From a virus: DNA of 64,000 nt. A program made the translations under genes and the position numbers. The stretch lies in the IMG/VR virus record IMGVR_UViG_3300035188_001352, positions 1 to 64,000 of that record; one strand, written 5' to 3'. Of the stretch, positions 6,647-30,450 are shown in pieces. Numbering within the stretch: position 1 is the stretch's first letter; each line of letters begins with the position of its first letter. The notes beneath the pieces are model-generated. The model was not told the origin of the DNA, made no database searches, and saw only the letters and a program-made list of their open reading frames with translations.

Positions 6647-7348
6647 TTATAATTCAGCATATTCATCTAAATCCTTTTCAATTAGTTCTCGTTGACATGC
6701 AATAAAGTCTCTATTACCATTTAAATGTTTATTTAGAATACTAAGAGCTTCTTTACATGATTCACTTTCGTCATTTACATCCCCCGTAAATGCATATACA
6801 TCTGTTAAAGTTGGAATCTTTAAAAATGATAAAATAGGTCCAACATAATTAGGATTTATTCTTATTGTTTCTGCATCCAAAATATGTTTATGAATATTTG
6901 AAAAAGAAGCATTTACAAATGCCTCTAGTTGTATTTCTCCATTAGGACAATATTTTGGAAAATTCTCAAAAGATGTAATTTTACGATACTTAAAAAGATG
7001 ATATGTTATAAAAACATCCCTATAATCTGATTTACATACTAATTTTTCAGGAAAGTTTTTGAATGATTTTAATTTTTCTAAACGCTCCAAAATCATATAT
7101 TTTGCATTTCGGATTTTGAATGGGAATTCACCATTAGCATCTAACATTTCATCATAAATTATAAGAGTTCCTAACTGACAATCAACTATCCCAGATGCAG
7201 ATATTTTGAAACCGTGCAAAGAGTTTTTCTTTGGGTCATTCGGTATAAGTTCTTGACTTGCCCAATCATTTAATAGGTCTCGAATACGTTGAACGTATTC
7301 GCTATTTGAAGCCGTGTCTTCTTGTAAGTATTGTTTAAAGCTCTGCAT
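6647..7348 (-). CDS. array family A1: CTS-headed, LRR-type paralog
   Basis: A 233-residue protein, the last gene of array A. The head is MQSFKQYLQE; the start at 7348 was chosen over the ATG at 7354 by alignment with paralogs. Module type 1 follows (HGFKISASG..., ML..NGEFPFKI), then two degenerate LRR-like units (LKSFKNFPEKL, ITSFENFPKY) and the NIHKHI segment. A GPILSFLKI core and the tail ACQRELIEKDLDEYAEL close it. It overlaps the upstream gene by 14 bases. Confidence 0.85.
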   Translation of the reverse strand: MQSFKQYLQEDTASNSEYVQRIRDLLNDWASQELIPNDPKKNSLHGFKISASGIVDCQLGTLIIYDEMLDANGEFPFKIRNAKYMILERLEKLKSFKNFPEKLVCKSDYRDVFITYHLFKYRKITSFENFPKYCPNGEIQLEAFVNASFSNIHKHILDAETIRINPNYVGPILSFLKIPTLTDVYAFTGDVNDESESCKEALSILNKHLNGNRDFIACQRELIEKDLDEYAEL

Positions 7349-8009
7349 ATTCATCTAAATCCTTTTCAATTAGTTCTCGTTGACAAGCTACAACATTTCT
7401 ATCACCATCTAAATGTGTTCTGACAATTCGAATGGCCTCATTTAATTTATCGTATTTTGCTAATCTAATACTATTAGAAGAAAACCAAACTTGAGTTGGA
7501 TGAGGTATTTGTAATAATCCTAATAACCCTCCATTAAAATACTCCATTTGATAAATGTGAATCGCATCACATTTTACTAGCTTTTTGATATTTGTAAAAA
7601 CTGTATCAACTTGAACATTGATAGACAATAAATGACAAACTACTTGAAATGGAAGTAATCTATTCAATCCTATATTACAATTAGCCGAAAACTTATGATG
7701 ATTAATGACATGCGCAAAGTTCATTTTATACTCAGAGCAAACTGCTTCCATAATCTTACCATGCAAATCAAACTGAGCTTTTTCAGATTTCAACCAATTA
7801 CTATCAGGGTCTATAATAACTACAACAAAACCTTCAGTGCTTACATCTTGAAGTGAAAACTTAAAGCCTTTCAACACTGGTGAGACTATACCACGAACTT
7901 TTGCTGAAGTTATGTCTGTTATAGGATTTCCTGGAAAGTAATAACAACATTCAAGATAAACTGAATTCTGAGTTTCACCTTCTTGCAAGTATTGTTTAAA
8001 ATTCTGCAT
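7335..8009 (-). CDS. array family A2: CTS-headed, type 3 paralog
   Basis: A 224-residue protein with head MQNFKQYLQE and tail ACQRELIEKDLDEYAEL. Its middle is a distinct module (CCYYFPG..., LKGFKFSLQDVS, DPDSNWLKSE, KIMEAVC) that recurs only in A13 (15233-15904). The two are therefore a paralog pair separated by ten other members. No LRR-like units are seen. It shares 14 bases with A3 upstream and 14 with A1 downstream. Confidence 0.85.
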   Translation of the reverse strand: MQNFKQYLQEGETQNSVYLECCYYFPGNPITDITSAKVRGIVSPVLKGFKFSLQDVSTEGFVVVIIDPDSNWLKSEKAQFDLHGKIMEAVCSEYKMNFAHVINHHKFSANCNIGLNRLLPFQVVCHLLSINVQVDTVFTNIKKLVKCDAIHIYQMEYFNGGLLGLLQIPHPTQVWFSSNSIRLAKYDKLNEAIRIVRTHLDGDRNVVACQRELIEKDLDEYAEL

Positions 8010-8664
8010 ATTCGTCTAAATCACGTTCAATTAGTTCTCGTTGACAAGCTACAACATTTTGACGTTCAGGATTCAAATGCTTATTGATAACATACATCCA
8101 ATGCAATTCATGATAATCTGATGTTGATAAGTTGATTGCTTTACCTTTCTTAGCTAACCTAATAATGCCTAATGCCTTTCCGGTAACGTTTTCACAATTA
8201 CGAATATATAAGTTTCTAAAAGAAGATATAATTTTATCAATTCCGGATAATGAAGATTTATTTTCTACATTTACATAAACAGTATCATATGAAATTGGAA
8301 TTGAAAGTTTAGGAACCTCATGTGAAAAGAATAGATTAACATGGTGGTCTTCATGATTTTCTCGATAGTTAGAAGAATCACCTGCAAATTCATTCAATAC
8401 GTCTAAAACATTTTCACGATAATTATCAAAAGCATCAACATTTTTATCTTCAATCAATAATTTAATAGAAAATGAAATAGTACTAACTAATATAATACTA
8501 TCAGTTCCAGTCTTTTCATTGATAAGTTTTTTGAACTGTTGCAAATTTGCTTTCATCTTCTTACATAAGTCAGTCAATCCGCTAAATTCTAATGTAAGCT
8601 CTATCATATGATTTTGTTTTAACTTTGGAATAGCTTCGTGTTCAAATAGTTCTTTTACTTTCAT
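7996..8664 (-). CDS. array family A3: CTS-like head, type 2 paralog
   Basis: A 222-residue protein. The head MKVKELFEHEA is a variant in which the glutamate follows FEH rather than a clean LxE. The type 2 module (a roughly 100-residue alpha/beta domain ending SIPISYDTVYVNVENKSSL) leads into SGIDKII, GIIRLAKKG and the tail ACQRELIERDLDEYAEF. It is closest to A7. The start overlaps the A4 stop as TAATG. Confidence 0.85.
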   Translation of the reverse strand: MKVKELFEHEAIPKLKQNHMIELTLEFSGLTDLCKKMKANLQQFKKLINEKTGTDSIILVSTISFSIKLLIEDKNVDAFDNYRENVLDVLNEFAGDSSNYRENHEDHHVNLFFSHEVPKLSIPISYDTVYVNVENKSSLSGIDKIISSFRNLYIRNCENVTGKALGIIRLAKKGKAINLSTSDYHELHWMYVINKHLNPERQNVVACQRELIERDLDEYAEF

Positions 8665-9602
8665 TAAAACTCCGCGTACTCGTCTAGGTCGTTTTCAATT
8701 AGATCACGTTGGCACGCAATCCTGTTGCGCCCTGCAAATATATGTTTAGTTAGAATTTTACCTAAGATAAGATCAACTTCTTGTGGTGGTTTTGTTTGTC
8801 GAACACCTTGTTCTAATCCTTTAATTTTCAAAATAGAAAGAACACCACTTTTAATAGTTGGGTCAAATTGTAACATGATGCCTATTCTTTTTACTAACTT
8901 ATCTAAATTGTCAAAAGAAGTAATTTTTGCATTACGATAAATTTGTAGATTACCATCAATATCAGAAGCAATATGTTCTAATGATGATAAGTTTTTATTA
9001 TCCCATATAGCTAAATTTGTTAATTTAGATGGACAACCTTCTAAAGATATTAGATTTTCATTGTCACTTATCATCAAATGTTCAATTGTTGGCGGACAAC
9101 CTTTTAGGGAACGAATTGAAGATTTAAGAACATTGAGATAAATTGTATCTTTTGGGAATTCAATTTGAGTTAAGTCAGGGCCCATTTCTCCAGATAATAT
9201 AATTGTTTTATTTTCTTCTTTCTTAGCTAATTTTTTTTCAGCTATGTCTTTCAGCTTTTTTAAACAGTTGATATAACGAACATATAGATTAGGAACGGGA
9301 ATAGGCGAATTCATCTTAGTGGCTCTATCAGCATGTGCTGCCTGAGCTCTTATCTGTCCATTAGAATAAATCGAATAATCCATAGTTCCATTTTTCAACT
9401 TGAATGTTAAAGTTCCGTTTTTTAGTTTTATAGCAGAACTGATATCAAATGTTTTTGAAAGTATTTCTTTATATTCGTTTGATTGTTTGACTTTATTTAG
9501 AGTATCAGCTAAATCAACCGGGTCAATAGGCGGCAAATCTTTAACAGCAGGTATCGAAACACCGGCTTCTTTTAGTAATGGAAATAGTTCATTTAGTTTC
9601 AT
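8664..9602 (-). CDS. array family A4: CTS-like head, long LRR-type paralog
   Basis: A 312-residue protein, the longest member. The head is MKLNELFPLLKEAG. A type 4 module (KLKNGTLTFKLKNGTMDY, YINCLKKLKDIAEKKL) is followed by at least three LRR-like units (LRSLKGCPPTIEHL, LISLEGCPSKLTNL, ITSFDNLDKL). It ends ACQRDLIENDLDEYAEF. It is related to A6 by its type 4 module. The start overlaps the A5 stop as TAATG. Confidence 0.85.
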   Translation of the reverse strand: MKLNELFPLLKEAGVSIPAVKDLPPIDPVDLADTLNKVKQSNEYKEILSKTFDISSAIKLKNGTLTFKLKNGTMDYSIYSNGQIRAQAAHADRATKMNSPIPVPNLYVRYINCLKKLKDIAEKKLAKKEENKTIILSGEMGPDLTQIEFPKDTIYLNVLKSSIRSLKGCPPTIEHLMISDNENLISLEGCPSKLTNLAIWDNKNLSSLEHIASDIDGNLQIYRNAKITSFDNLDKLVKRIGIMLQFDPTIKSGVLSILKIKGLEQGVRQTKPPQEVDLILGKILTKHIFAGRNRIACQRDLIENDLDEYAEF

Positions 9603-10327
9603 TAAAACTCCGCGTAATCGTCTAGATTATTTTCAATTAGTTCTCGTTGGCAGGCAATAGCATTTTTTTCGTCTGTTTGTAAATGGTTATAGACTATTCC
9701 AATTGCTTGGCGAAGTTCATTAGAGTATTTAGCTCTTTCAGTTGCTGGATATGAAATAGTTCTCAATCCTGGTATCTTTAGCAAGCCTAATATAGAATTA
9801 GTCAAAGTATGCGGAACGACAATTTCACCATCACCTTGTCTATTAGGTCTTATTTCTTTGATGACTTTGTGAATGCCACTCAAAGAAGTAATACCAGTTC
9901 CACGAAGTATATATGAAGAAGCTCTTTCAGGAAAATAATCAAGTGATGTGATTTCTGGATTGTTGCTAATGCTAAAACGACCACCCACGATTTTAGGACA
10001 TCCTTTCAAAGAACCTAAACTACAATTTGCTATAAAGAAGTTCCTTTCTATTTGTCCAAACTGACATGGCAAATAACGAAGATGAGTTGAACCATTAATA
10101 CGTGGCAAACATTCTTCATCACCAGATAATAACACAGCCGTAGCATTTACAATACCATAATCATACTTTGCATTTTCAAAGTTGCCAGGGTCTAAATCTT
10201 CAATGTTATACTTCTTTAGAACTCGATGACCATTTCTAGTAATCCAGTCGATAATATCTTCTTCCGGCCAAAAGTCGAAATCGTTGTTAGCCTGTTCTTT
10301 TAATAAGTATTGTCTAAAACTCTGCAT
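9602..10327 (-). CDS. array family A5: CTS-headed, LRR-type paralog
   Basis: A 241-residue protein. I placed the start at MQSFRQYLLKE (10327) because the longer frame only adds seven residues read from the A6 tail region. The type 5 N-module (FWPEEDIIDWITRNG) is shared in outline with B13. LRR-like units LGSLKGCPKIVGG, ITSLDYFPERA and ITSLSGIHKVI follow. The tail is ACQRELIENNLDDYAEF. It shares 14 bases with A6. Confidence 0.85.
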   Translation of the reverse strand: MQSFRQYLLKEQANNDFDFWPEEDIIDWITRNGHRVLKKYNIEDLDPGNFENAKYDYGIVNATAVLLSGDEECLPRINGSTHLRYLPCQFGQIERNFFIANCSLGSLKGCPKIVGGRFSISNNPEITSLDYFPERASSYILRGTGITSLSGIHKVIKEIRPNRQGDGEIVVPHTLTNSILGLLKIPGLRTISYPATERAKYSNELRQAIGIVYNHLQTDEKNAIACQRELIENNLDDYAEF

Positions 10328-11240
10328 AATCATCCAAGTCGTTTTCAATTAGTTCACGTTGACATTTGATAGCACTTCGTTCACTAGAGAATAAATGCTT
10401 AGAAACAATTTGAGCAACTAAACCAAATTCTCCATCTTCTGTTTTTCTACCATTTATAGTAAATGCAATTGAAGTACAATCTTTTACTTTGAAAAATGCT
10501 AAGACCCCAGTTTTGACTGGCGGTAAAGTAAATCCTTGACACCTCGGAATATGCTTATGAACGTCAGAGAATGAAGTGATTGGATTACCATACGCTTGAA
10601 TAAACTGAGCATGCTTTGGAAATCCTTCAAAAGATGTTAGCTTATTATTAGCAGCATTAAACAATCTACATTGTTCAGGACCACCAACTAAAGGCGAAGT
10701 CAGTTCATTGTTGTTACAATAGAAATCCCCACCTACTGAGAAATCCCCCGCCGCATTAAGTTCAGGTGCTCCTTCTAAGGTTGTAAGATTATTGTAAGAA
10801 CAATTGAAGTTTGAAATCTTATTTGGATAAATTCTGCCTTTTAGCGTAGTAAGACTAAGATTACGCACATCATCTTTAGCATTCTTTAGACGTTTTGCAA
10901 ACCAATTCACAAAATGGGTATGTATTGTATCTAAACAGTTCAGATACATTTGTAATGAACCGTCTGGACCCGCACCATAACCCGCTTTACCCCAAATAGA
11001 GGCGTAAGAATTTTTGACTTTGATATCACCTGCATAATTGACAAAGTATTCTCGTGGTTCTTTTAGATAGGTATCTTTAGTCACTATTTGCAAAGAACCA
11101 TTCTTTCTTTGTATTTTCGTGGAGTTCAAGTCAAAGTACTTCGAGAAGTCCTTAAACTCTGGAGTTTGTTCTAATTGGTCAATGACCGCTGAATAGTCTG
11201 CACCTTTAGATGCTTCATTTAACAATTCTGATATTTTCAT
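10314..11240 (-). CDS. array family A6: CTS-headed, long LRR-type paralog
   Basis: A 308-residue protein with head MKISELLNEAS, a clean LNE site. The type 4 module has IQRKNGSLQIVTKD and MYLNCLDTIHTHF. It has the clearest LRR-like series of array A: LTTLEGAPELNAAG, FYCNNNELTSPLVGG, NNKLTSFEGFPKHA and ITSFSDVHKHI. The tail is KCQRELIENDLDDYAEF. The ATGA overlap with A7 suggests coupled translation. Confidence 0.85.
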   Translation of the reverse strand: MKISELLNEASKGADYSAVIDQLEQTPEFKDFSKYFDLNSTKIQRKNGSLQIVTKDTYLKEPREYFVNYAGDIKVKNSYASIWGKAGYGAGPDGSLQMYLNCLDTIHTHFVNWFAKRLKNAKDDVRNLSLTTLKGRIYPNKISNFNCSYNNLTTLEGAPELNAAGDFSVGGDFYCNNNELTSPLVGGPEQCRLFNAANNKLTSFEGFPKHAQFIQAYGNPITSFSDVHKHIPRCQGFTLPPVKTGVLAFFKVKDCTSIAFTINGRKTEDGEFGLVAQIVSKHLFSSERSAIKCQRELIENDLDDYAEF

Positions 11241-11872
11241 AGTTCTGCGTACTCGTCTAAATCCTTTTCAATTAGTTTTCGTTGACATGCAATGACATCA
11301 CCCGAGTTTAAATATTTTAAAACAATGTTAGCCCATTCAGGATTTGGAGTATTGATTTTTATTACTCCATGTTTTGCTAACTTTATCAAACCCAAAACAC
11401 CACCTGTAATATTCTCAGAATTATTGATTTCTAAATAACTAAAATCTTTTATTATTTTATGAATACCAGATAATGAAGTTTTATTAAGGTTCTGAATAAA
11501 GATATTCGGAAACTCAATTGGTATTGGTAATGAAGGAACCTGTTTGTCAAATGTTAAATGAACTATATGCGACCCTGAATCTTCACGAATTTCAGTGATA
11601 TCAAAAAACGCTTTAAGAACAGCATTGACATCATCTATGTAATTCGCAAAATCATTCACCTGATGTTCTGGAACTTCAAGGCTAATATCAAATGTACCTT
11701 TACCAACTTGAATAATTGAACTCAATCCGGTTTTTTTGTCAATAGCATCAGTTATCTTTTTAGGATTTTCATTGAGTTTTGTTAAAGTAGTAGTTAGAGC
11801 ATTATACGACAGCCATAAGTCTATAAAATAATCTTTTCTAACTGAGGTTTCAAATAGTTCTTTTATTTTCAT
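11237..11872 (-). CDS. array family A7: CTS-like head, type 2 paralog
   Basis: A 211-residue protein with head MKIKELFET. The type 2 module resembles A3 almost segment by segment (LWLSYNALTTTLTKLNENPKKI, TFDKQVPSLPIPIEFPNIFI, LNKTSLSGIHKIIKDF), then GLIKLAKHG and the tail ACQRKLIEKDLDEYAEL. It has no LRR units. It is joined to A8 by a TAATG overlap. Confidence 0.85.
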   Translation of the reverse strand: MKIKELFETSVRKDYFIDLWLSYNALTTTLTKLNENPKKITDAIDKKTGLSSIIQVGKGTFDISLEVPEHQVNDFANYIDDVNAVLKAFFDITEIREDSGSHIVHLTFDKQVPSLPIPIEFPNIFIQNLNKTSLSGIHKIIKDFSYLEINNSENITGGVLGLIKLAKHGVIKINTPNPEWANIVLKYLNSGDVIACQRKLIEKDLDEYAEL

Positions 11873-12528
11873 TAAAATTCCGCGTATTCGTCTAAGTCTT
11901 GTTCAATCATTTCACGTTGACATGCAACTATATCTTGATTTTCTGATTTTCTATAACTAGTAATAATTTTAACCCATTCAACAGTTTTAAACTTATTACC
12001 CCAATCTGCATTATTTAGAATGAGTTTGCCTTTGATTTTCAATAACCCTACAACACTATCGCTAATCATATTAGCATATTCAATTCTAAATAATTCATCT
12101 GCTTTAATAAGTTTATCAACACCTGCTAATGAAAGAGCTGTATTACTATTTGAGTTCAAATAGATAACCGGCCATTCAATTGGGCTATTTGGCATATTGT
12201 CAATAAAGACAATAGGAAATGATGAACCTTCGTTATAAGGGCTTTTATCGATTTTGTTAAAGCTTTCGACTACTTCGCGAACTCTTTCTAATTGATGTTC
12301 AATATTAGTTTTGTTGAATGGAAGTTTTCCGTTCAAAGTTATTCGTACTTGGTTACTTGATGATGGTTTATCGACAAGTTTAACTTTTACGCCAGTAAGA
12401 TTAGCTTTAATCAAAGCATCTCGAATAGCAATTACTTTTGGTGCAAAATGTGTTTCAAACGATAACTTTATTTCAAAAGTATCGGTTCTATTACTTGTTG
12501 CTTCATTTAATAATTCTGATATTTTCAT
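11872..12528 (-). CDS. array family A8: CTS-headed, type 2 paralog
   Basis: A 218-residue protein with head MKISELLNEAT. A divergent type 2 module (EIKLSFETHFAPKVI, FPIVFIDNMPNSPIEWPVIYL) is followed by SLAGVDKLI, VVGLLKIKG and a tail with Met at one usual Leu position (ACQREMIEQDLDEYAEF). An ATGA overlap connects it with A9. Confidence 0.85.
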   Translation of the reverse strand: MKISELLNEATSNRTDTFEIKLSFETHFAPKVIAIRDALIKANLTGVKVKLVDKPSSSNQVRITLNGKLPFNKTNIEHQLERVREVVESFNKIDKSPYNEGSSFPIVFIDNMPNSPIEWPVIYLNSNSNTALSLAGVDKLIKADELFRIEYANMISDSVVGLLKIKGKLILNNADWGNKFKTVEWVKIITSYRKSENQDIVACQREMIEQDLDEYAEF

Positions 12529-13166
12529 AATTCTGCGTACTCGTCCAGGTCGTTTTCAATTAGTTTTCGTTGACATGCAATCCAATCATTGGCTGTTTGA
12601 TAACTATTTATGATAGATATAGCTTTTAATAAAGTATTATAACCTTCTTTCCATCTATCAGTTGAAGCAGTAGAAAGTAAAGGAATATTTTTCATCTTCA
12701 ATACACCTAATAAGTTTGATTGAACTGATACAGGAACATAAATCTTACTGCAACTCTGAATATGTTTATGAATATCTTTGAATGAAGTGATAGGATTATC
12801 AATCAAATCTAAAGAACCACTTATATTATAAGGAGCACCTTCAAGTGAAGTAATATTATTTTTATAACAATTTACAGCACCATGAACCGAGTTTGGAAAG
12901 TTTTTGAATGAAACTATTTGTCTATCTTCAATATCAAAATCACCTAATACTACGTCAAGTTTATATTTTAGTTCATATCCATTTTCAACTTTATCAGCGA
13001 AAGCTCCAAATGCCGTATCAGATTGCGATAAGTCTAATTTAGAATTAGCATATAATATGCCCATTTTATTTAGATTGATAGTACCTTGAGTAAGCATTCT
13101 CAATTGCTCTGCTACTTTATATGGTATTTGTTCTTCTTCCTGTTCAAACAATTCTTTTATTTTCAT
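12525..13166 (-). CDS. array family A9: CTS-like head, LRR-type paralog
   Basis: A 213-residue protein with head MKIKELFEQ. LRR-like units are IVSFKNFPNSVHG, ITSLEGAPYNISG and ITSFKDIHKHI. The core LLGVLKMKNIPLL and the tail ACQRKLIENDLDEYAEL follow. The short N-module (YKVAEQLRMLTQGTINLNKMG) is not clearly shared with other members. It is joined to A10 by TAATG. Confidence 0.85.
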   Translation of the reverse strand: MKIKELFEQEEEQIPYKVAEQLRMLTQGTINLNKMGILYANSKLDLSQSDTAFGAFADKVENGYELKYKLDVVLGDFDIEDRQIVSFKNFPNSVHGAVNCYKNNITSLEGAPYNISGSLDLIDNPITSFKDIHKHIQSCSKIYVPVSVQSNLLGVLKMKNIPLLSTASTDRWKEGYNTLLKAISIINSYQTANDWIACQRKLIENDLDEYAEL

Positions 13167-13831
13167 TAAAACTCCGCATACTCGTCTAAGTCATTTTCAA
13201 TTAGTTTTCGTTGGCACGCAATGGTGTTGCCATTAGGTAAGAATTCATTGAGAATATCAATTGCTCTTTCGAAATCGTCAATACTTTCACTTGATATCCA
13301 AACAGTTTTAAGGTTTTTGATTTTCAAAAATCCTAATATCGGACTTGGCTTATTCCCAGAAATATAAATCTTATCAGCTTCTAAGATATGGTTATGAACA
13401 TTAGCGAATGATAAATTTTGAGCTTCCCATAAATTCAATACTCCTTTGGAATACTTTGGAATACTTTCTAAAGAAGTAAGCTTAGGGAAATTTACTCCCT
13501 CTAATTTTAGAGCATCAATCTTTGAGCTTTTAGGAGTTTCAATATACTCTGGAAAGTTTTTGAATGAAGAAAGTGCAGACGTATAAACGTGAATACATTT
13601 AGCTCGGGTAATCTTGAATGGAAGAGTTCCTTCTGGCGTTAGCATTCTTTCCGTAATTTGAAATTTTGGCATATTGCATGAAACTGTTCCATCTTTAGCG
13701 ACTACAAATTTGTCATAGTAATCATGCGGAAAAGTTTGCCAACTTCGCCATTCATCAATAATAGCAAGTACTTCATCCTTAGACATTTGTTGATTACTAG
13801 ATGTTTGTTCAAATAGTTCTTGTATTTTCAT
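13166..13831 (-). CDS. array family A10: CTS-like head, type 1 paralog
   Basis: A 221-residue protein with head MKIQELFEQT. The type 1 module is FVVAKDGTVSCNMPKFQI then MLTPEGTLPFKITRAK. It continues LSSFKNFPEYI, LTSLESIPKYSKG, SFANVHNHI, SPILGFLKI and the tail ACQRKLIENDLDEYAEF. It is the closest paralog of A14. The start overlaps the A11 stop by one base. Confidence 0.85.
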   Translation of the reverse strand: MKIQELFEQTSSNQQMSKDEVLAIIDEWRSWQTFPHDYYDKFVVAKDGTVSCNMPKFQITERMLTPEGTLPFKITRAKCIHVYTSALSSFKNFPEYIETPKSSKIDALKLEGVNFPKLTSLESIPKYSKGVLNLWEAQNLSFANVHNHILEADKIYISGNKPSPILGFLKIKNLKTVWISSESIDDFERAIDILNEFLPNGNTIACQRKLIENDLDEYAEF

Positions 13832-14523
13832 TAAAACTCCGCGTACTCGTCTAAATCTTTTTCAATCAATTCGCGTTGACATGCAATGGCATCTCGTTTA
13901 GAACTTGCTAAATGTTTATTTAGTATCTGTTGCCACTTATCACCATGGTCTGTAACTGAACTCAATCCATTTATCTTTAGAAATCCAAGAATAGGACCTT
14001 TATACGGATATGGAAATTTAACACCTTCAACATAATCGATATGTTTATGAACATTTGCAAAAGATAGTTTCGGAAAATGAGAAAAATCTGCGGAACCATT
14101 AATATGTCGAGGCACACCTTCTAATGAATGAATATTAGGCCCTTTCATTGTGCTATTAACTCCGAATATGTTCAGCATTGTGCCATTACTATTATTAAGA
14201 ACTTTATCTGGAAAGTTTTTAAACGTTGTCATTGCATTAACACCATAAACATCAAGTGAAATACATGATATAAACTTGAATGGAAGCTCTCCGTTCTCAA
14301 ACATCCATTCATAAAGTTTTAGATTTTCGCTCAAATGCTCTACACCATAACCTCCACCTTTATATGGAACTATTTTATATTTTCCGAATGGTGGATACCA
14401 TGAAGAATATGTTGCAGCTTTTTCAGAAGCAATTTTGGTTCGCCATTTATGTATCTTAGCCATGATAGCAAATTCTTCCGGATGCTTCTTTACTGCTTCA
14501 TTTAACAACTCTCCAATTTTCAT
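13831..14523 (-). CDS. array family A11: CTS-headed, type 1 paralog
   Basis: A 230-residue protein with head MKIGELLNEAV, a clean LNE site. The type 1 module (MFENGELPFKFISCISLDV) is followed by MTTFKNFPDKVL, IHSLEGVPRHING, SFANVHKHI, GPILGFLKI and the tail ACQRELIEKDLDEYAEF. An ATGA overlap joins it to A12. Confidence 0.85.
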   Translation of the reverse strand: MKIGELLNEAVKKHPEEFAIMAKIHKWRTKIASEKAATYSSWYPPFGKYKIVPYKGGGYGVEHLSENLKLYEWMFENGELPFKFISCISLDVYGVNAMTTFKNFPDKVLNNSNGTMLNIFGVNSTMKGPNIHSLEGVPRHINGSADFSHFPKLSFANVHKHIDYVEGVKFPYPYKGPILGFLKINGLSSVTDHGDKWQQILNKHLASSKRDAIACQRELIEKDLDEYAEF

Positions 14524-17595: not shown

Positions 17596-17599
17596 AATC

Positions 17600-19671: not shown

Positions 19672-19727
19672 ATTAGAGCCTTCTAATTCTCGAAATATGT
19701 ATGTAACCCTACATATAAATAGAGTAT

Positions 19728-20039: not shown

Positions 20040-20045
20040 AAACAC

Positions 20046-22384: not shown

Positions 22385-23015
22385 ATTCGTCTAAGTCACG
22401 TTCAATTAGTTCTCGTTGAAAGCCAATAGTATCTTTACTCCCATTATAGTATTTATGTAAAATGTCATTAACAATTTTAAGGTCGCTAAGTAATTCATCT
22501 GGACCATTTATCATGATGCTATCAAAACCTTTTACTTTTAGAAGCGATAGTATTCCAATTGATTTAGCCGGTGCTTCAAAACGAATGTCCAATTGAAATG
22601 CACTTGAACCTTCTATTAGTTTTTCGATACCTTTAACAGACTCTTGGTTAGTATAGATAGTAGTCAAATGATTTTGAATGACCATCTTGAAAGCAGGTGG
22701 CCAATGACATTCAATATGACTGTAAGCGTCAACAGGTTCAAAGTGGTCAGTAACTATGTCATGTATATCACCTAAGAAATCAACAGTTTCAAAAAGATGT
22801 TGCGGAACATCGTGTATTTTGACAATTATTGAATCAAAAATAGAAGTGAACTCTATTGTATTAGAAAGGTTGTATTCTTCCTTGATAAATTTTGTAATTA
22901 GGAATACTAGAGTTTTACGTTTGCCGACAGAAATAGGACCAGCAAAGTCAATTTGTACATTGACAATTGGTAAGTGTCCAGCACTTTCTAATAAGTATTC
23001 TTTAAAACTCTGCAT
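22371..23015 (-). CDS. array family B4: CTS-headed, type 2 paralog
   Basis: A 214-residue protein with head MQSFKEYLLESA. The type 2 module (IVNVQIDFAGPISVG, CHWPPAFKMVIQNHL) continues into SVKGIEKLI, IGILSLLKVKG and a tail with Phe for Cys (GFQRELIERDLDEYAEF), as in B2. The shared change suggests that B2 and B4 are related. It shares 14 bases with B5. Confidence 0.85.
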   Translation of the reverse strand: MQSFKEYLLESAGHLPIVNVQIDFAGPISVGKRKTLVFLITKFIKEEYNLSNTIEFTSIFDSIIVKIHDVPQHLFETVDFLGDIHDIVTDHFEPVDAYSHIECHWPPAFKMVIQNHLTTIYTNQESVKGIEKLIEGSSAFQLDIRFEAPAKSIGILSLLKVKGFDSIMINGPDELLSDLKIVNDILHKYYNGSKDTIGFQRELIERDLDEYAEF

Positions 23016-23796
23016 ATTCGTCCAAGTCGTTTTCTATTAGTTTACGTTGGCATCCAATAATATCAGGGTTGTTTGACGCTAAGTATGTATTGACTATTCT
23101 AGTTGCTTCAACTAATTCTTCGTTTACTTTAGTTTTATCAGAAAAGTAAAGTTGAATACCAAACATATTTCGTGTAGGCTTTTTAATTTTGAATATACTA
23201 AGTAATCCTTTTCCAACTAAAGTTTTTGCTGCGGCATTAGACAATGTTATGTTATTTACTATTTTGAAATGTTGTCCGATAGTTCTAAACAATTCATAGT
23301 CAAATTCGTAGTCAAGCACTAATCTATGACATGTAATTTGACATCCTTGACCCCATTCTTTCAACTTTAGACAATCGGTCAATATCAATGCCTCTTTAAC
23401 TTCACATGCAAATCCTTTGAATGAAGTAATTTGTGAAAGTTGTATGTTTAAACTCATTCCGACTTTATTAGGTCCATATTCTAATGTAGTCAATTTCCTA
23501 GTATTGAAATCTTTTATACTAACTCTACCTGGGCAATTGATATTGTTATACTTTACAAGTAGTCCAACTTCACCATTATCAACAGGTCCGATTTCACGAA
23601 TAGCGAAGAATTGCTCTCCTCGAACAGAAATACTTCCATTCTTTAGGAATACGAATGTAGTTGGCAAATATTTATTTCCATAATGTTCAAGATAAAACTC
23701 ATGAAGTACTTCCTTAGTTGCTTCTGGAGTTGTTGGGTGCCAAGGTGCCAAGTTCGTTTGCTTAGCTTCAGCAATAAAGTTCTTAAAATTCTGCAT
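23002..23796 (-). CDS. array family B5: CTS-headed, type 6 LRR paralog
   Basis: A 264-residue protein. Start MQNFKNFIAEAK at 23796 was chosen over the longer frame. The IAEA site is identical to that of T4 internal proteins. The type 6 module (NLAPWHPTTPE, KNGSISVRGEQF, EVGLLVKY) is followed by LTTLEYGPNKVG, ITSFKGFACEV and GLLSIFKIKK. The tail is GCQRKLIENDLDEYAEF. Confidence 0.85.
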   Translation of the reverse strand: MQNFKNFIAEAKQTNLAPWHPTTPEATKEVLHEFYLEHYGNKYLPTTFVFLKNGSISVRGEQFFAIREIGPVDNGEVGLLVKYNNINCPGRVSIKDFNTRKLTTLEYGPNKVGMSLNIQLSQITSFKGFACEVKEALILTDCLKLKEWGQGCQITCHRLVLDYEFDYELFRTIGQHFKIVNNITLSNAAAKTLVGKGLLSIFKIKKPTRNMFGIQLYFSDKTKVNEELVEATRIVNTYLASNNPDIIGCQRKLIENDLDEYAEF

Positions 23797-24451
23797 ATTC
23801 GTCCAGGTCGTTTTCAATTAGTTCGCGTTGGGCAGCAATAGTGTCATGGGATTTTGCATATTTATTTAGTATTTCAATCCAGTGTTCATTTTTTCCTAAT
23901 ACTGAATGTAATGATTTTATCTTCAACATACTCAACACGTTAGTGACTTCTCCTACTATATGTTCAAACCTGAACACTTGAGTATCAGGGAAATGTTTGT
24001 CAAAGTTGCTAAGTGAGATACTTTTATTACGTTTCAAATCAAATACTATGACTGGATAATGTATGATAGTATTAGGATTGACCGGACCAAAGAACCATAC
24101 ACTTGGATTGACTTCATCTAGTGTCAATCCACCGCTTAGCTCACGATTAGAAAAATTCGCTGCTTCAGTCGCTATTTCTTCTAACTCATCTTGTACATAA
24201 TGTCGATTGCTTAGTTTAATTTCAACTTGTAGATTGTCATCTCTATTGAAACCCCAATCAATATCTTTCATACCTAAATGACTTTTAAGATCGTTGACAA
24301 ACTTTTCAACTTCATTATCAAAAGCATCGCGATTTCTATGATTTCCCATAGCTTCGCCAAAAGTTTCTTTGTTCTCTAGTTCTAAGACAAGCCATGGGAA
24401 AACAAATGGAGATTCATTTTCTTTTAGTAAGTATTGTTTAAAGCTCTGCAT
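23783..24451 (-). CDS. array family B6: CTS-headed, type 2 paralog
   Basis: A 222-residue protein with head MQSFKQYLLKEN. The type 2 module has FPWLVLELENKETFG and VNPNTIIHYPVIVFDLKRN, then SLSNFDKHF and VLSMLKIKSL. The tail AAQRELIENDLDEYAEF has Ala in place of Cys. This shows the Cys is not essential to the family. It shares 14 bases with B7. Confidence 0.85.
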   Translation of the reverse strand: MQSFKQYLLKENESPFVFPWLVLELENKETFGEAMGNHRNRDAFDNEVEKFVNDLKSHLGMKDIDWGFNRDDNLQVEIKLSNRHYVQDELEEIATEAANFSNRELSGGLTLDEVNPSVWFFGPVNPNTIIHYPVIVFDLKRNKSISLSNFDKHFPDTQVFRFEHIVGEVTNVLSMLKIKSLHSVLGKNEHWIEILNKYAKSHDTIAAQRELIENDLDEYAEF

Positions 24452-25100
24452 ACTCGTCTAAATCCTTTATAATAAGTTCGCGTTGGCATTCAATAATATC
24501 GTTATTATTTTCAAAATGTCTATGAACAATCTTAAACCATTCTGGTTCATTACTCATTGCCCATTCAAGATTTTGAAGATTTGTCATTTTCAACAATCCT
24601 AATACTTGCCCAGTGACTTTAACCGCGGCACTTACGTATAAAGCCAAATCTTTAGGATTTATAGCTTTATGAATATCATGTAAAGATACTTCAGCACCAC
24701 CATTTACTGTAAAGTTAAGAGCCACCTTAGGATGCTCAATTTTAAATGGGGGTATGATATTAAAGATACTTACAAACTGTTCTTTTAACTTCAAGGGTTT
24801 AGTAATAATATCTTTGTAATAGTTATTTAGCAGACCAAGCAGTTTTTTGTCAAAAGCACTAATACCTTCTGTACTACCTTCAGTTGCATTTGTGATTGGT
24901 ACTTTAAAAGCAAATTCTTTATCTCGGTATTCTATAGAAACTATTCTATTCTCAAATTGATTATGTAACAGATTGCCGATTGCATTTTCTATTGTTTCTG
25001 AAGTCGAGGGTAATGAAGAATTTGGTAGGTTACCGGGAACCTTACAATAAACATAATAGGTAATTCTTTGTGCGCCATTTGACATGTTATAACTCCGCAT
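24438..25100 (-). CDS. array family B7: type 2 paralog with degenerate head
   Basis: A 220-residue protein. It begins MRSYNMSNGAQ: the 14-base overlap with B8 is preserved (ATGCGGAGTTATAA) but the rest of the targeting-like head is lost. The type 2 module (YYVYCKVPGNLPNSS, FNIIPPFKIEHPKVALNF), EVSLHDIHKAI, VLGLLKMTNL and the tail ECQRELIIKDLDEYAEL are intact. It may no longer be packaged, if the head is a signal. Confidence 0.8.
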   Translation of the reverse strand: MRSYNMSNGAQRITYYVYCKVPGNLPNSSLPSTSETIENAIGNLLHNQFENRIVSIEYRDKEFAFKVPITNATEGSTEGISAFDKKLLGLLNNYYKDIITKPLKLKEQFVSIFNIIPPFKIEHPKVALNFTVNGGAEVSLHDIHKAINPKDLALYVSAAVKVTGQVLGLLKMTNLQNLEWAMSNEPEWFKIVHRHFENNNDIIECQRELIIKDLDEYAEL

Positions 25101-25791
25101 ACTCGTCTAAATCTTTTTCAATTAGTTCACGTTGACACGCGATGAAGTTTTTATCGGCGTCGAAATGTTTCATTACAATTTCATACCAAGGAGGTATCTT
25201 TTGAGAACGTGGCCAAATTGTAATATGCTTCAATTCTTTTAACTTTAATAATCCTAATACATTAGAATTTATTTTATTAATCGCATTATAGAAAATAATT
25301 TTTTTGCAATGAGGCATTTTCTTATGAATATCTTTTAGAGATATTGAAGGAGAATGATCTAAGTAAAATTCGATATATGGCCAATCAGTATAAACATTTG
25401 GACCAAGTTGTTCTCTAAAAGATATGTATGTATTGTCTTCATCACGGTGAAATATATCGGTTCCTAAAAGCTCATCAACTATTTCAGTGCATTTTTTACG
25501 TATTTCTCTAACATGATTAGCATGTAAGTTAGTCTCATCTAGTTCATATGTAATAAGCATTTCATCAGCTCCGAAAAAAGCTTCAACTTCATTATGTCCA
25601 AAGTAATCTTGAAGATGAGATGTTATCCATTTTTCGAAAGTAATATGTGGATTATCGTCACCATCACCGTCAGTAATCCATTGCTCAACCTCAGACGTAA
25701 AGATACCAGTGCTAATATCAATGTACGCGTTAGTGGGAAGTTCATGATTAATAATTTCTTCTTTCAATAAGAATTCTTTAAAACTCTGCAT
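25087..25791 (-). CDS. array family B8: CTS-headed, type 2 paralog
   Basis: A 234-residue protein with head MQSFKEFLLKEE. An acidic type 2 module (WITDGDGDDNPH, LGPNVYTDWPYIEFYLDH) continues SISLKDIHKKM, NVLGLLKLKEL and the tail ACQRELIEKDLDEYAEL. It shares 14 bases with B9. Confidence 0.85.
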   Translation of the reverse strand: MQSFKEFLLKEEIINHELPTNAYIDISTGIFTSEVEQWITDGDGDDNPHITFEKWITSHLQDYFGHNEVEAFFGADEMLITYELDETNLHANHVREIRKKCTEIVDELLGTDIFHRDEDNTYISFREQLGPNVYTDWPYIEFYLDHSPSISLKDIHKKMPHCKKIIFYNAINKINSNVLGLLKLKELKHITIWPRSQKIPPWYEIVMKHFDADKNFIACQRELIEKDLDEYAEL

Positions 25792-26455
25792 ATTCGTCTA
25801 AATCCTTTTCGATAAGTTCACGTTGACAAGCTACAATATCTTTTGACTCTGACCTTAAGTATTTGCTAATAATTACTTGAACATCTCGGTGTTCGCTTGA
25901 ACATTGGCCAAAAAACAAAGCTTGAAGTTTTGGAATCTTTAATGCCCATAAGACACCACCTTTCCATTGATTAGAAATTGTTAAAGTGCCATCTATGTAT
26001 TCAAAATGTTTGTGAGCATTAGACCAATCAAGATTATGACACAAGCCTAATCCAAGGTTTCCATCAATTCGTTTTGAAATGCCATCTAACTTTGTTAGAA
26101 GTGGATGCGCACAGGTAGTCACGATAGCAGTTCTTCCATACATCTTATCGCCGGTGAATGATACATCTGGTGGAAATCCTTCAAATGATGATAATCTATT
26201 GGCACCCAATTCAATCTGACCACACTTTATCATTTTGAAAGTTAGCTTACCGGCATCAGGTCCATCTTTAGGAATAAGAGTATTCTTTAAGTTCCAACGT
26301 CCATCAATTGATACCATACTATTAACAACGCTAAATTTCCCAAAGCTGACTGGCATCGGATGTGATGCATACTTACCTTTACGAATCGCATTTATTTCGA
26401 GTCGTACAGCTTTATCTTCGGCAGTTTCTTCAGTTAGTAGTTCAGAGATTTTCAT
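25778..26455 (-). CDS. array family B9: CTS-headed, type 1 LRR paralog
   Basis: A 225-residue protein with head MKISELLTEET. The type 1 module (FGKFSVVNSMVSIDGRW, KLTFKMIKCGQIEL) is followed by LSSFEGFPPDVS, LTKLDGISKRIDG, WSNAHKHF and GGVLWALKIPKL. The tail is ACQRELIEKDLDEYAEF. An ATGA overlap joins it to B10, the only such junction in array B. Confidence 0.85.
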   Translation of the reverse strand: MKISELLTEETAEDKAVRLEINAIRKGKYASHPMPVSFGKFSVVNSMVSIDGRWNLKNTLIPKDGPDAGKLTFKMIKCGQIELGANRLSSFEGFPPDVSFTGDKMYGRTAIVTTCAHPLLTKLDGISKRIDGNLGLGLCHNLDWSNAHKHFEYIDGTLTISNQWKGGVLWALKIPKLQALFFGQCSSEHRDVQVIISKYLRSESKDIVACQRELIEKDLDEYAEF

Positions 26456-27120
26456 AGTTCTGCGTATTCGTCCAGGTCGTTTTCAATAAGTTCTCGTTGG
26501 CATTCAATAAAATTTCCAAGTGGTAAATATTTGTTGATAATATTACAAGCATTTCTTAAATTCACTTTAATTTTTACTTCATCTTGAGATTTACCAGAAT
26601 GGTGGTCAATAAATCCTACATGCTTCAAGTCTCTAATTTTTAGTAATGATAATAAGGGCCCTTCATATAAAGCACTAGTTATTAACCATCCATCAAGTCT
26701 TTTGACATACTTATTGAAATTTGTAAAATCAAAGTTTCTAATTCTTGATGTATCAAGTCTATTACTAATATCTGATGGAAATCCATCAAGAGATTGTATT
26801 TGGTTACCTGTAGAAAATTCAATACCACCTTCGCCAACTATTTCAGGAAAGTTCTTGAACGTCTTAGGAACATTCCATATTACTAATCGAAGAGCTTCTG
26901 CAATTGGAAATAGTAATTCATCATTGTCATCAAACATGCAATGCTCAATAATTAAAGGTTTCTTCAAATAGATTTTTCCATTCTTAACTGCATGTCGTGG
27001 AAATTTATTCGGAAACCTACATCTGCCAAGTTCTCCACTCTTATACTTTCCAATCATTTCACGGATTTGTTTATCATCCGGATTAGAAGCTTCAGATAAG
27101 TATTGCTTAAAGCTCTGCAT
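26452..27120 (-). CDS. array family B10: CTS-headed, type 1 LRR paralog
   Basis: A 222-residue protein. Start MQSFKQYLSEAS at 27120 was chosen by paralog alignment. The type 1 module (KNGKIYLKKPLIIEH, DNDELLFPIAEALRLVIW) continues PKTFKNFPEIVGEG, IQSLDGFPSDIS, DFTNFNKYV and GPLLSLLKI. The tail is ECQRELIENDLDEYAEL. It shares 14 bases with B11. Confidence 0.85.
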   Translation of the reverse strand: MQSFKQYLSEASNPDDKQIREMIGKYKSGELGRCRFPNKFPRHAVKNGKIYLKKPLIIEHCMFDDNDELLFPIAEALRLVIWNVPKTFKNFPEIVGEGGIEFSTGNQIQSLDGFPSDISNRLDTSRIRNFDFTNFNKYVKRLDGWLITSALYEGPLLSLLKIRDLKHVGFIDHHSGKSQDEVKIKVNLRNACNIINKYLPLGNFIECQRELIENDLDEYAEL

Positions 27121-27793
27121 AATCGTCCAAGTCAAGTTCAATTAGTTTTCGTTGGCAAGCTATAAAGTCTTTTCCTGTATCGAAATATTCCTTTACAATG
27201 TTAAACCATTGAACTTTAGCTGAAGCATATAATGTTATAGCATTCTTTATCTTTAGTAATCCTAATACATTTTGTGTTATATTAGAAGAGTCACCCATAG
27301 AAATCTGTTTAGCAGATAATATGACTTTATGTATATCTTGTAAGGATTTGACACTTTCTTCAATGATAACGTGATTGACTTCAACTGTAGTCGTTTTATC
27401 AAAGTTATCTTCTAAGATAACTACTGGCATTTCAGAAGATACTGGTTCAAAGTCATTCTTATAAATTTCATACTTATCTGCTAACTTGATAAACTTTGTT
27501 GCTATAGTATCAAGTTGCGGTTTAGTATAATGAGTATGGGGTTCAAGAACTAAATGAAACGTTACTCTATCAACTCCAAAATGATAGACTTCTTTTACTT
27601 TAGGAAGATTTGCTTTTTCACAGAGTTCAGATAATTCACGAATAATTATATTGTTTCGCTGAAAAAGCTGTTCTCTATTATACTTTGGAGAAATGTAATC
27701 ATCTCCACGTACTTTTATTTGAAGAAGCAATGGGCGAATTGGTTCTACCCAATGATCATTGCCTTCTGCTAAGTATTCTTTAAAACTCCGCAT
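27107..27793 (-). CDS. array family B11: CTS-headed, type 2 paralog
   Basis: A 228-residue protein with head MRSFKEYLAEGN. The type 2 module has VYHFGVDRVTFHLVLEP and EMPVVILEDNFDKTT, followed by SLQDIHKVI, VLGLLKIKNA and the tail ACQRKLIELDLDDYAEL. It shares 14 bases with B12. Confidence 0.85.
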   Translation of the reverse strand: MRSFKEYLAEGNDHWVEPIRPLLLQIKVRGDDYISPKYNREQLFQRNNIIIRELSELCEKANLPKVKEVYHFGVDRVTFHLVLEPHTHYTKPQLDTIATKFIKLADKYEIYKNDFEPVSSEMPVVILEDNFDKTTTVEVNHVIIEESVKSLQDIHKVILSAKQISMGDSSNITQNVLGLLKIKNAITLYASAKVQWFNIVKEYFDTGKDFIACQRKLIELDLDDYAEL

Positions 27794-28451
27794 ATTCGTC
27801 TAAGTCTTTTTCAATGAGTTCTCGTTGGCAAGCAATAGCATTTCTATTGCCTTGCAAATAAGGATTGACAATTGAATACCATCGTGGGCTATTACTTCCA
27901 AAAGGACCTGCGCCAATAATATTGACTGGCATTTTTAGTTTGAGCAAACTAAGTATTCCCCCTTTTATCATATTTGCTTTATAAAGTCTGAACTCATCAC
28001 ACTTTAGAATAACTTTATCTAAGTTAGAAATCGATTGACCTTCTTCACACCAATATGAAATGTTACCATCATTTATACTTAGCTTAAAATTTGGAAATCC
28101 AAAACAAGATAACTCAGCTGTAGAAAATTTTACTTGTAATTCAGGTGAAATCTTAGTCGTAAAAAACTCATTCACAGTTGAACTAATAGTATCACGTAAC
28201 TTTTGAATAGTTTCTGCTTGACACTGGATTTGTTTTGTTATCTTAAACTTCAAATCAATTCCATAAGTAGTACTGAGATAACTTGAAATATCATAACCTT
28301 TCTTTTTTGCTACTTTTATTATCAAATTTTTAAGCTCAGATTCTAAAGAATATGGAGAATATTCAATTTTGACTTTAGTTTCAACAAACATCCCAAGTTG
28401 AATATTTGAATCAGTTTCTACTTCTTGTAAGTATTCTTTAAAACTCTGCAT
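27780..28451 (-). CDS. array family B12: CTS-headed, type 2 paralog
   Basis: A 223-residue protein. I placed the start at MQSFKEYLQEVE (28451). The frame is open 66 bases further, but that part overlaps the B13 coding end. The type 2 module (FVETKVKIEYSPYSLES, ELSCFGFPNFKLSINDGN) continues SISNLDKVI, GGILSLLKLKM and the tail ACQRELIEKDLDEYAEF. Confidence 0.85.
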   Translation of the reverse strand: MQSFKEYLQEVETDSNIQLGMFVETKVKIEYSPYSLESELKNLIIKVAKKKGYDISSYLSTTYGIDLKFKITKQIQCQAETIQKLRDTISSTVNEFFTTKISPELQVKFSTAELSCFGFPNFKLSINDGNISYWCEEGQSISNLDKVILKCDEFRLYKANMIKGGILSLLKLKMPVNIIGAGPFGSNSPRWYSIVNPYLQGNRNAIACQRELIEKDLDEYAEF

Positions 28452-29076
28452 ATTCGTCCAAGTCGCTTTCAATAAGTTTACGTTGACAAGCAATAGCATC
28501 ATGTCGATTTGCTTCACAATATTTAGTTACAATTTTGCATGCTTCCTTTAGTTCGTCAGAAGCAGTTGATAATGGCGAAACCTTCATTAGGTTTTGTATC
28601 TTAACAAAGCTTAGTAACCCTTTAGTTTCTTCAGGTATTGAAATTGAATAGACTTTTTTGACCACTTTTTCAATACCTTTGAAATTGATAATACCTGTAT
28701 TATGCAGATAGATATCTTCAGCTTCTTCAGGTAAGTATTCAACTGAAGTAATGTTCTTACCCTTTACATTGAACTGTCCACCCACAAATTTTGGTACCCC
28801 TTTCAAGTCAATCATATCATTTGCTAATACATGAACATCTTTAGTACATTCTCTAAAGTTGATTGGCAATACACACTGCTTCCCTTTGTACCAGACCAAA
28901 TCACTTCCAGAAATTGATAAACTCCAATGACATGTGATACTCATATCTTTATGAATTTCATAATTCCCCTGACCAATGCCATGAGCTTTCATCCAAGCAT
29001 TGATTTGAGACTTCTTAGTATAGAAAGTCGATTCGCGTTCTTCTTTTAGTAAGTATTGTTTGAAAGTATTAGACAC
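28438..29076 (-). CDS. array family B13: first paralog of array B, LRR type
   Basis: A 212-residue protein with head MSNTFKQYLLKEE, two residues longer than usual. The type 5-like N-module (KKSQINAWMKAHGIG, YKGKQCVLPINF) is followed by MIDLKGVPKFVGG, ITSVEYLPEEAE, IINFKGIEKVV and GLLSFVKIQNL. The tail is ACQRKLIESDLDEYAEF. It overlaps the 29069-29281 gene by 8 bases. Confidence 0.85.
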   Translation of the reverse strand: MSNTFKQYLLKEERESTFYTKKSQINAWMKAHGIGQGNYEIHKDMSITCHWSLSISGSDLVWYKGKQCVLPINFRECTKDVHVLANDMIDLKGVPKFVGGQFNVKGKNITSVEYLPEEAEDIYLHNTGIINFKGIEKVVKKVYSISIPEETKGLLSFVKIQNLMKVSPLSTASDELKEACKIVTKYCEANRHDAIACQRKLIESDLDEYAEF

Positions 29077-29281
29077 CTGGCCCTTCCTCCATTACAGGAA
29101 TCAAAAAGCTTTCACCTGCTTTAGGAACTCGTAAGCCATTGACTTCATTGAACTTGTCCATTAGCTGCTTCAAGATTTCGCCATGAATGTACTTATTCTT
29201 ATAACGAATAGCTGCTTCAATGGTCATACCAGGCATGAACAGGAAGGGTTCGTAACCAGAAATTGTTATTTGGCATTCCAT
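29069..29281 (-). CDS. small protein, weakly LysM/tail-X-like
   Basis: A 70-residue protein. Its C-terminal half (LRVPKAGESFLIPVME) resembles the end of LysM or tail protein X modules, which sit in baseplates. The remainder (MTIEAAIRYKNKYIHGEILKQL) is helical. It lies between a 394-residue gene and array B with overlaps on both sides. The structural role is a weak inference. Confidence 0.55.
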   Translation of the reverse strand: MECQITISGYEPFLFMPGMTIEAAIRYKNKYIHGEILKQLMDKFNEVNGLRVPKAGESFLIPVMEEGPGV

Positions 29282-30450
29282 TTATTGAAGCTCTCAATGT
29301 TGATTGAATCGACCACGATTGAAGATTTGTCAAGTTTCATATAAACTTTAATTGCGGAAGGAACCCTAAACTTTTCCATTGCAACTTCTAAAGCTTCTTC
29401 ATCATTAGGGTATTCGTTTCTAATATTTTTGCGATATTCACTTAATGCTTTCCAATAGTTATGATACTCATTACTCTGTGAGTCTAACTGGTATTCAATG
29501 TGACTACGATTATGTTCAGCAACTTGTTTAGCACGAAGGTAATCAAAGTCTAAACGGTTGTACTTCAATATGTACGGAAGACCATTAATTTTGATTTTGT
29601 CCAAGAACCCTTCATTCTTTATTAAGTCAAGAAATTCTTCTGGAGTATCTGCTGCTGGAGCTTTATGTTCTTTGTAAGTATCTAAACGAGCGTTCAACTT
29701 AGCTTTCATCATGCTTATCCAATTTCTCATACCTTTTTCAGTAGATAAATCTTCTTTAGGCGGAGTTATTAAATGAGCATACTTAGCATCAATCTCACGA
29801 GCTTTTTTGCGTCGAGCATTTAGGGCAGTTCGTTCTTCATCGCTTCTGATAACTTTTACTTTGATTGAACCTGTTTTACCATAAATTTCTTTTTGACCTT
29901 TCATTAATGCAATAAGTGCTTTATATAGTTTTCCTTCTGAACCTTCAGATGTTTTGAGGTCTTCAAGTTCCGCTTTCTTGAAGGCAGCCATAATTTCAGA
30001 AGATTGATTCATCAAATCATGGTCATCTTTGAAAAAGTTTTGCCAAGAACATGCCCAAATGTAAAGTTCTTTGTTGTCATGTCCAGGATGAGGTGGAAGT
30101 TTCAAAAGCGATAGCACTTGTCTATCATCAAATAGTATTACTACGCCCTTGACAGTTTCATCATCTTTAATTAGACGATGCAGTTCAGCTGCACTTTTAG
30201 CGTTTGGAACTTCATCTATCTTTGCATATTGTCCTAAGAACGACGGGAACTTATGTTTAGTAGTACGAGAATAATTAACGCTTCCGCCATAATATCGTCC
30301 TCTTTCATATTCAAGTGAAGTTTTTAGAACCTTTAGTAAATCAGGTTCAATGAAAGAAAGATTCTTCAAATCTTCAAATAGAAGTTCAAAGAAATTATCT
30401 TCTTCTATAATAACTTTATTAGTAGAAGAAAAGAGTTCAAATATTTTCAT
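29266..30450 (-). CDS. hypothetical protein with array-like head
   Basis: A 394-residue, charged, largely helical protein. It begins MKIFELFSSTNK, very like the MKIKELFE heads of the array family, with a possible IEE site at about residues 15-17 (VIIEEDN). It lacks the DLDEYAEF tail. It opens the array B transcript and has a late-type box AATAAATA upstream (30491-30498). It could be another prohead-targeted protein. No domain is recognised. Confidence 0.65.
   Translation of the reverse strand: MKIFELFSSTNKVIIEEDNFFELLFEDLKNLSFIEPDLLKVLKTSLEYERGRYYGGSVNYSRTTKHKFPSFLGQYAKIDEVPNAKSAAELHRLIKDDETVKGVVILFDDRQVLSLLKLPPHPGHDNKELYIWACSWQNFFKDDHDLMNQSSEIMAAFKKAELEDLKTSEGSEGKLYKALIALMKGQKEIYGKTGSIKVKVIRSDEERTALNARRKKAREIDAKYAHLITPPKEDLSTEKGMRNWISMMKAKLNARLDTYKEHKAPAADTPEEFLDLIKNEGFLDKIKINGLPYILKYNRLDFDYLRAKQVAEHNRSHIEYQLDSQSNEYHNYWKALSEYRKNIRNEYPNDEEALEVAMEKFRVPSAIKVYMKLDKSSIVVDSINIESFNKWNAK

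Follow-up and report, generated by a model that had tools for sequence, protein, structure and literature searches.

A large family of probable capsid-targeted, injected internal proteins in an uncultured jumbo phage distantly related to T4

The DNA analyzed here is IMG/VR virus record IMGVR_UViG_3300035188_001352, a contig of 118,937 bases; its positions 1 to 64,000 are called the window. The contig, from an uncultured bacterial jumbo virus distantly related to T4, encodes at least 32 related small proteins. With a probability of about 0.7, these are a hugely expanded set of T4-style internal proteins (IPs) that are targeted to the capsid, trimmed by a protease, and injected. A sequence-only reading of the window had proposed an expanded set of head-packaged, injected proteins, and our analysis supports it, with packaging, cleavage, and injection argued by analogy to T4. 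Among the 32 paralogs, the first ten residues (the head) have a mean pairwise identity of 43%. The value falls to 13% in the middle, is 23% across a C-terminal domain of about 60 residues, and reaches 85% over the last 16 (the tail).

Open reading frame (ORF) listing and translation recovered all 29 paralogs at the places previously given, every one on the minus strand: 14 at 6647-16581 (array A), 13 at 20252-29076 (array B), and singles at 32064-32762 and 39457-40299. The earlier total of 29 was an undercount, as three more members are located outside the window at contig 106075-107896, giving 32. The range given for the arrays, 6647-30450, was also too wide at one end, since 29069-30450 holds two nonmembers, a 70-aa ORF and a 394-aa ORF (29266-30450) with a head-like start, MKIFELF, and no tail. 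Several mechanical ORF starts were too far 5′, and member starts were placed at the head methionine.

Other contigs of the same phage are about 100% identical to this one. IMG/VR 3300042346_000702 (L022) shares 16.7 kb with it at 100% identity and, where it runs past this contig, encodes two further members. Two more were found in 3300046011_008865 (L018), at L018:6950-7693 and L018:7680-8390, and because the tails match exactly, this contig is probably from the same phage. The sister contigs thus add at least two, and probably four, members, so that the phage probably carries 32-36 paralogs. The members are given below, with orthologs in 3300013127_000251 (L072) and with leucine-rich repeat abbreviated as LRR.

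A1: 15904..16581, minus strand, first gene of array A; AlphaFold-modelled; ortholog L072:2623-3303
A2: 15233..15904, minus strand, middle homologous to that of the 7335 member, head type different
A3: 14520..15236, minus strand, ortholog L072:3300-4007, middle identity 66%
A4: 13831..14523, minus strand, ortholog L072:4004-4693
A5: 13166..13831, minus strand, family member
A6: 12525..13166, minus strand, ortholog L072:5393-6064
A7: 11872..12528, minus strand, alpha/beta class
A8: 11237..11872, minus strand, alpha/beta class; AlphaFold-modelled
A9: 10314..11240, minus strand, LRR repeats; PHROG 21719 match, E 8e-6
A10: 9602..10327, minus strand, head MQSFRQYLLKE; ortholog L072:4680-5396
A11: 8664..9602, minus strand, LRR repeats
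A12: 7996..8664, minus strand, head MKVKELFE, alpha/beta class; ortholog L072:6064-6723
A13: 7335..8009, minus strand, head MQNFKQYLQE
A14: 6647..7348, minus strand, head MQSFKQYLQE, LRR-like class; last gene of array A, tail retained
B1: 28438..29076, minus strand, first gene of array B, GTG start
B2: 27780..28451, minus strand, head MQSFKEYLQE
B3: 27107..27793, minus strand, head MRSFKEYLAE
B4: 26452..27120, minus strand, family member
B5: 25778..26455, minus strand, LRR-like class
B6: 25087..25791, minus strand, family member
B7: 24438..25100, minus strand, head lost (MRSYNMSNG), tail retained
B8: 23783..24451, minus strand, alpha/beta class
B9: 23002..23796, minus strand, head MQNFKNFIAEA
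B10: 22371..23015, minus strand, family member
B11: 21647..22384, minus strand, family member
B12: 20988..21647, minus strand, head MKIKELFE
B13: 20252..21001, minus strand, last gene of array B, head MQSFKTYLAE
Single: 32064..32762, minus strand, weak head, tail end DFDEYATF
Single: 39457..40299, minus strand, head MKLQDLLTE, tail end DLDESGWAE, weak LRR_4
Further member: L022:7680-8333
Further member: L022:8603-9217, true start uncertain

The heads carry most of the argument for capsid targeting. An [LI]xE site with its glutamate at residue 7-13 was present in 28 of the 32 members compared with 11 of 165 other contig ORFs (Fisher p = 6e-21); the members outside this count are 24438, 32064, 106677, and 107270. 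The claim that nearly all members have T4-like heads therefore holds, with four exceptions. Typical heads are MQSFKEYLAE and MKISELLNE. The former has F4, Y7, L8, and E10, the same spacing as in MKTYQEFIAEA, the start of T4 IPII and IPIII, and T4 IPI starts with MKTFKEF. In T4 IPIII, mutants assign residues 4 and 7 to targeting and residues 8 and 10 to processing, and ten residues suffice (PMC9026906). The likeness to the T4 capsid-targeting sequence (CTS) was thus borne out at each position. Enrichment of the site was seen in two independent phages, this one and an unrelated 360-kb phage, in which 21 of 31 members have the LxE site against 5% expected (p = 3e-20). When scored against a profile of the heads, T4 IPII and IPIII fell within the top 2.4%, and IPI within the top 15% only. 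In the AlphaFold models of two members, residues 1-10 were disordered and the rest was folded at a predicted local distance difference test (pLDDT) score of about 90; the values were 92 with residues 1-10 at 54 for member 15904, and 89 with residues 1-10 at 46 for member 11237. Separately, three tail-less proteins with head-like N-termini, candidate injected enzymes, were seen in this phage. Besides the 394-aa ORF, they include a putative metallopeptidase with HELTH and the head-like MKVRELFLTE (L003:14987-15751, contig 98987-99751) and an HD-domain protein with the head-like MRFKEFLILTE and no tail (L018:10286-11080).

The machinery for such processing is encoded by the same contig. The absence of a gp21-type protease would have spoken against the sequence-only reading, and an S77 protease was found at contig 108401-109021 (PF03420, E 5.9e-25; T4 gp21 structure 5jbl, E 4e-9). 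Its ELTHP and SRG motifs (family ELxHP, SRG) align with T4 gp21, and the protease looks intact; we take these motifs to be its catalytic His and Ser. The gp20 portal gene adjoins the protease gene, and a gp23-like capsid protein matches T4 gp23* at E 8e-31. The three members outside the window are directly downstream of the protease, between it and the gp22-like and gp23 genes, where core-like ORFs also lie. At the edge of the capsid-protein propeptide, the contig phage has QQLME|TAAAG, XacN1 has IMLAE|TASAG, PA5oct has FLVE|NASAG, and the 360-kb phage has YLVE|TAGAD; by sequence comparison, an LxE site is retained near the place of T4 gp23 trimming in all four phages. A second, short S77 protease-like ORF of about 140 aa (E 2e-8) was also seen in this phage (L022:869-1291, G001:74880-75221) and recalls the truncated protease paralog of SPN3US. 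It is adjoined by a TerC-like membrane protein and two TerD-like proteins of the tellurite/stress family, recognized by eye (L022:7-876, 1278-2578).

The family resembles T4 IPI, IPII, IPIII, and Alt in its N-terminal propeptide pattern, [LI]xE site, gp21-type protease, gp23 capsid, and fast-changing bodies. In contrast to the three or four such proteins of T4, there are 32-36 paralogs here in tandem overlapping operons, their bodies are larger and LRR-like or alpha/beta, and they share a strongly conserved C-terminal tail, unlike the T4 IPs examined. No T4 match was obtained by tblastn with members 13831 and 10314, and no similarity in sequence to the T4 IP bodies was found. Body homology is only weakly defining, however, because IP bodies are not conserved even between T-even phages; relatives of T4 among the T-even phages also have other proteins that bear a CTS (PMC9026906). 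The T4 findings behind the injection and counter-defence steps proposed below are these: foreign proteins fused to the IPIII CTS are packaged and delivered (PMC9026906), a type IV restriction enzyme is blocked by IPI, and host-made IPIII lacking its CTS rescues infection of a strain that has an unknown defence (PMC9391042).

Under the preferred reading, each precursor would begin with a short disordered CTS of the form hydrophobic-x-E-hydrophobic-[LI]-x-E, which, as in T4, would draw it into the prohead core. The gp21-type protease would then cut after LxE and release the mature protein, folded and about 215 residues long; the protease, the motif, the position of the site, and the disordered head were all observed, and the cut itself is presumed. 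The mature proteins would be retained in the head and enter the host together with the DNA, as T4 IPs do. In the weakest step, suggested by divergence and fold, their diversified LRR-like or alpha/beta surfaces may bind differing host or defence targets. Packaging is well inferred by the T4 analogy, and the injected half of the reading is less secure than the head-targeted half.

Several points weigh against this reading. The phage is uncultured, and its proteins are predicted from the DNA. No target, enzyme, or defence-related match was found for the members in Pfam, PHROGs, or PADLOC. T4 IPs have been described as small, basic proteins; the members here are larger, with a median isoelectric point of 6.2. 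A good head is lacking in four of the 32 members and, in the 360-kb phage, in about 10 of its 31, and heads of the MKIKELFE type fall short of the T4 CTS by one or two residues. T4 late-promoter motifs (TATAAATA) before the arrays were no commoner than chance, and T4 late promoters driving the arrays were rejected on this count. Strict membership in the T4 internal proteins is not claimed, since the bodies are nonhomologous and virion location and ejection are predictions.

The bodies were annotated by Pfam, PHROGs, and PADLOC with nothing significant except the LRR-type PHROG 21719, and the Pfam LRR_4 match of members stayed below the cut-off. PDB fold matches of the LRR-like member 15904 were nearly all LRR proteins, but at E 0.2 and above they were not significant. 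The BFVD viral models A0A8D4GM21, GLZ7, GM51, and GP65 matched this fold at E 5e-8 to 1e-5. Similar 'SLEGCP' repeats occur in phage LRR-like proteins (PHROG 21719; Vibrio phage VB_VaC_TDDLMA, Lak phages, BFVD A0A8D4G entries); unlike the family here, the TDDLMA protein examined has neither a T4-type head nor the tail. Member 11237 joins an alpha/beta N-terminal domain, with weak fold matches to ferredoxin-like folds only, to a C-terminal domain in common with 15904. The idea of shuffled middles was only partly supported, by these two unrelated N-terminal fold classes on one C-terminal domain and tail and by the homologous middles of members 7335 and 15233, which have different heads.

The head-plus-tail architecture was found in uncultured phages only. 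L072 carries six members with best reciprocal middle matches (43-66% identity) to 15904, 14520, 13831, 9602, 12525, and 7996, and its gene order upstream of the array resembles that of the contig, as judged by sequence resemblance. Close phages show turnover of gene content. In 3300002026_000008 (G003), five members stand in tandem and others occur besides; MRFKEYLQE is an example of its heads and AQRELIDAGYEEFAQL of its tails. In the 360-kb phage (3300009709_000002), the 31 members form a single stretch in which 19 junctions measure 4 nt, and this phage also encodes an S77 protease of its own. Among cultured relatives, XacN1 is the nearest by capsid protein (55%). Several unrelated XacN1 proteins, one of them encoded next to the protease, start in a head-like way, but the phage has no tail family, so that head and family are separable. 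The family was found in none of the cultured relatives XacN1, RAS14, Atu_ph07, and Kc263, a weak match in PA5oct (E 0.02) was rejected since it reads through stops, and none was found in the cellular genomes searched.

The main rival gives the members a structural or core role in the head, as scaffold-like filler, decoration, or size-determining proteins that are packaged and trimmed and do not act as delivered effectors. The 20 members of SPN3US head paralog family B are all in the head with no known role, and like the inner-body proteins of phiKZ, they show that jumbo phages have large head-protein paralog families, partly in neighboring genes (PMC5694885). The location of members in the gp20-gp21-gp23 operon and a common tail suggesting a common structural partner also fit. 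SPN3US itself belongs to another phage lineage, its protease specificity is S/A-x-E, and no T4-type CTS or common tail is reported for family B, as compared from the literature. The highly divergent middles and two fold classes fit target binding better than a repeated structural role, and the turnover between close phages also disfavors the structural explanation, which we regard as unlikely.

Overlap between genes bears on a second rival. All 27 of 27 internal junctions overlap, by 14 nt (13 cases), 4 nt (5), or 1 nt (9). In the 14-nt class, the DNA GAATATGCAGAGTTTTAA encodes EYAEF* in one frame, and ATGCAGAGTTTTAA(A/G) encodes MQSFK in the other, so that one stretch of DNA holds both the final codons of the tail and the opening codons of the next head. 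One such junction is given as an example.

Dual-coded 14-nt junction: 7996..8009, minus strand, YAEF* of 7996-8664; +1 frame, MQNFK of 7335-8009

MQSFK-type heads are thus partly dictated by the preceding tail, as would suit cytoplasmic host-takeover or anti-defence proteins made after infection, whose N-terminus would be a translation-initiation or helix feature and not a targeting signal. However, the E-L/Y-L-x-E part lies outside the overlap and is retained in MKI heads at 1-nt and 4-nt junctions, unrelated XacN1 proteins carry head-like N-termini, and the members are in the head operon, all of which makes this explanation improbable.

The tail was claimed to be common to all members, and it was confirmed in 29 of 29 window members, with drift of the final four to six residues in the two singles (YATF, SGWAE). 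The last genes of the blocks and both singles retain the CQRELIENDLDE part, though no head follows to be encoded. Together with the drifted ends of the singles, this indicates a protein-level constraint on the tail proper, separate from the coding constraint on the last codons. Across 28 alignable tails, the mean nonsynonymous divergence (dN) was 0.09 and the synonymous divergence (dS) was 0.8-1.0 (median 0.8), with one third of pairs saturated. The tail is under protein-level selection. Although every junction overlaps and third-position identity in the tail (0.63) exceeds the random value of 0.33, it is very improbable that the tail is a by-product of those junctions (translational coupling, next-gene start) or of DNA-level gene conversion, and a mere junction artefact was rejected, because the tail persists where no family member follows, including in the last head-operon member, its amino acids are fixed while synonymous sites are near saturation, and it is conserved in phages with other junctions.

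In both AlphaFold models, the tail is a helix ending the fold, with high confidence in the 15904 model. All L072 tails read CQEELIDxxLKD(Y/F)AEL, and their orthologs here, with orthologous middles, read CQR(E/K)LIExxLD(E/D)YAE(F/L). Four tail positions differ as a set between the two phages, so the tail changes in concert within a phage. From this we infer that the tail contacts one common, phage-specific partner. Cleavage at the tail LIE as a general feature was rejected, since relatives have LIDAG, LINAG, or LLDAG there; with this LxE-like site not retained, it is unlikely that the tail is cut off. C-terminal trimming does occur in T4 Alt (PMC9026906).

Most likely, the tail helix would serve as a second docking surface, specific to the phage, for a common partner, for instance a core protein or a factor in packing or ejection. 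The overlapping tail/head junctions would couple translation, and cassettes could duplicate, come, or go without breaking frame or tags. We tentatively propose, as a possibility short of an even chance, a two-address cargo system in which a removable T4-type head and a permanent phage-specific docking tail allow at least 30 modular binding proteins to be injected as a set, with the dual-coded junction serving in-frame cassette gain. Relative to T4 IPs, the scale, the second conserved tag, and the dual-coded junction are new, and the probable mode of action is close.

T4 packs few such proteins, and their roles were established one by one (IPI, IPIII). If the preferred reading is true, the phage, with at least 32 genes on one delivery route, would carry a pre-loaded protein arsenal that ranks among the largest known for any virus. 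It would also be a source of new counter-defence proteins and provide a natural two-tag system by which cargo could be loaded into capsids. The independent array of about 30 members in another jumbo phage indicates a general strategy missed by annotation, because Pfam and PHROGs contain almost nothing that the members match.

The names gp54-like, gp4, and gp16 previously given to the neighbors of array A were correct.

Large terminase: 5042..6601, minus strand, directly downstream of array A
Small terminase-like (gp16) gene: 16581..17054, minus strand, directly upstream of array A; phrog_445, E 5e-5
gp4-like head closure protein: 17020..17595, minus strand, phrog_218, E 4e-45
gp54-like, tail-tube family protein: 17600..18868, minus strand, phrog_4542; the family fits gp54

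Around the head genes, the gp22-like scaffold (contig 103363-104295) has the C-terminus FLKRIAGITS, the gp22-like protein of the 360-kb phage ends in RMRKLAGLK, and four ORFs near the gp22-like gene (contig 105352-106033, 107270-108379) start with LFEIAGIKDID-type motifs. These ends and starts are possibly a core interaction motif. A GIY-YIG-like ORF, recognized by eye and homing endonuclease-like, is inserted between the gp22-like gene and the core ORFs (L004:572-1303, contig 104572-105303).

A dispersed non-coding repeat of up to about 290 bp, with 86-96% identity and repeated GTTGATTTTATTACT units, had no Rfam match and occurs at four places in the phage.

Dispersed repeat copies: window 4684-5042; contig 92630-92922; L018:11220-11481; L053:14-105

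Finally, 11 tRNA genes are clustered among small ORFs at window 54382-63319.

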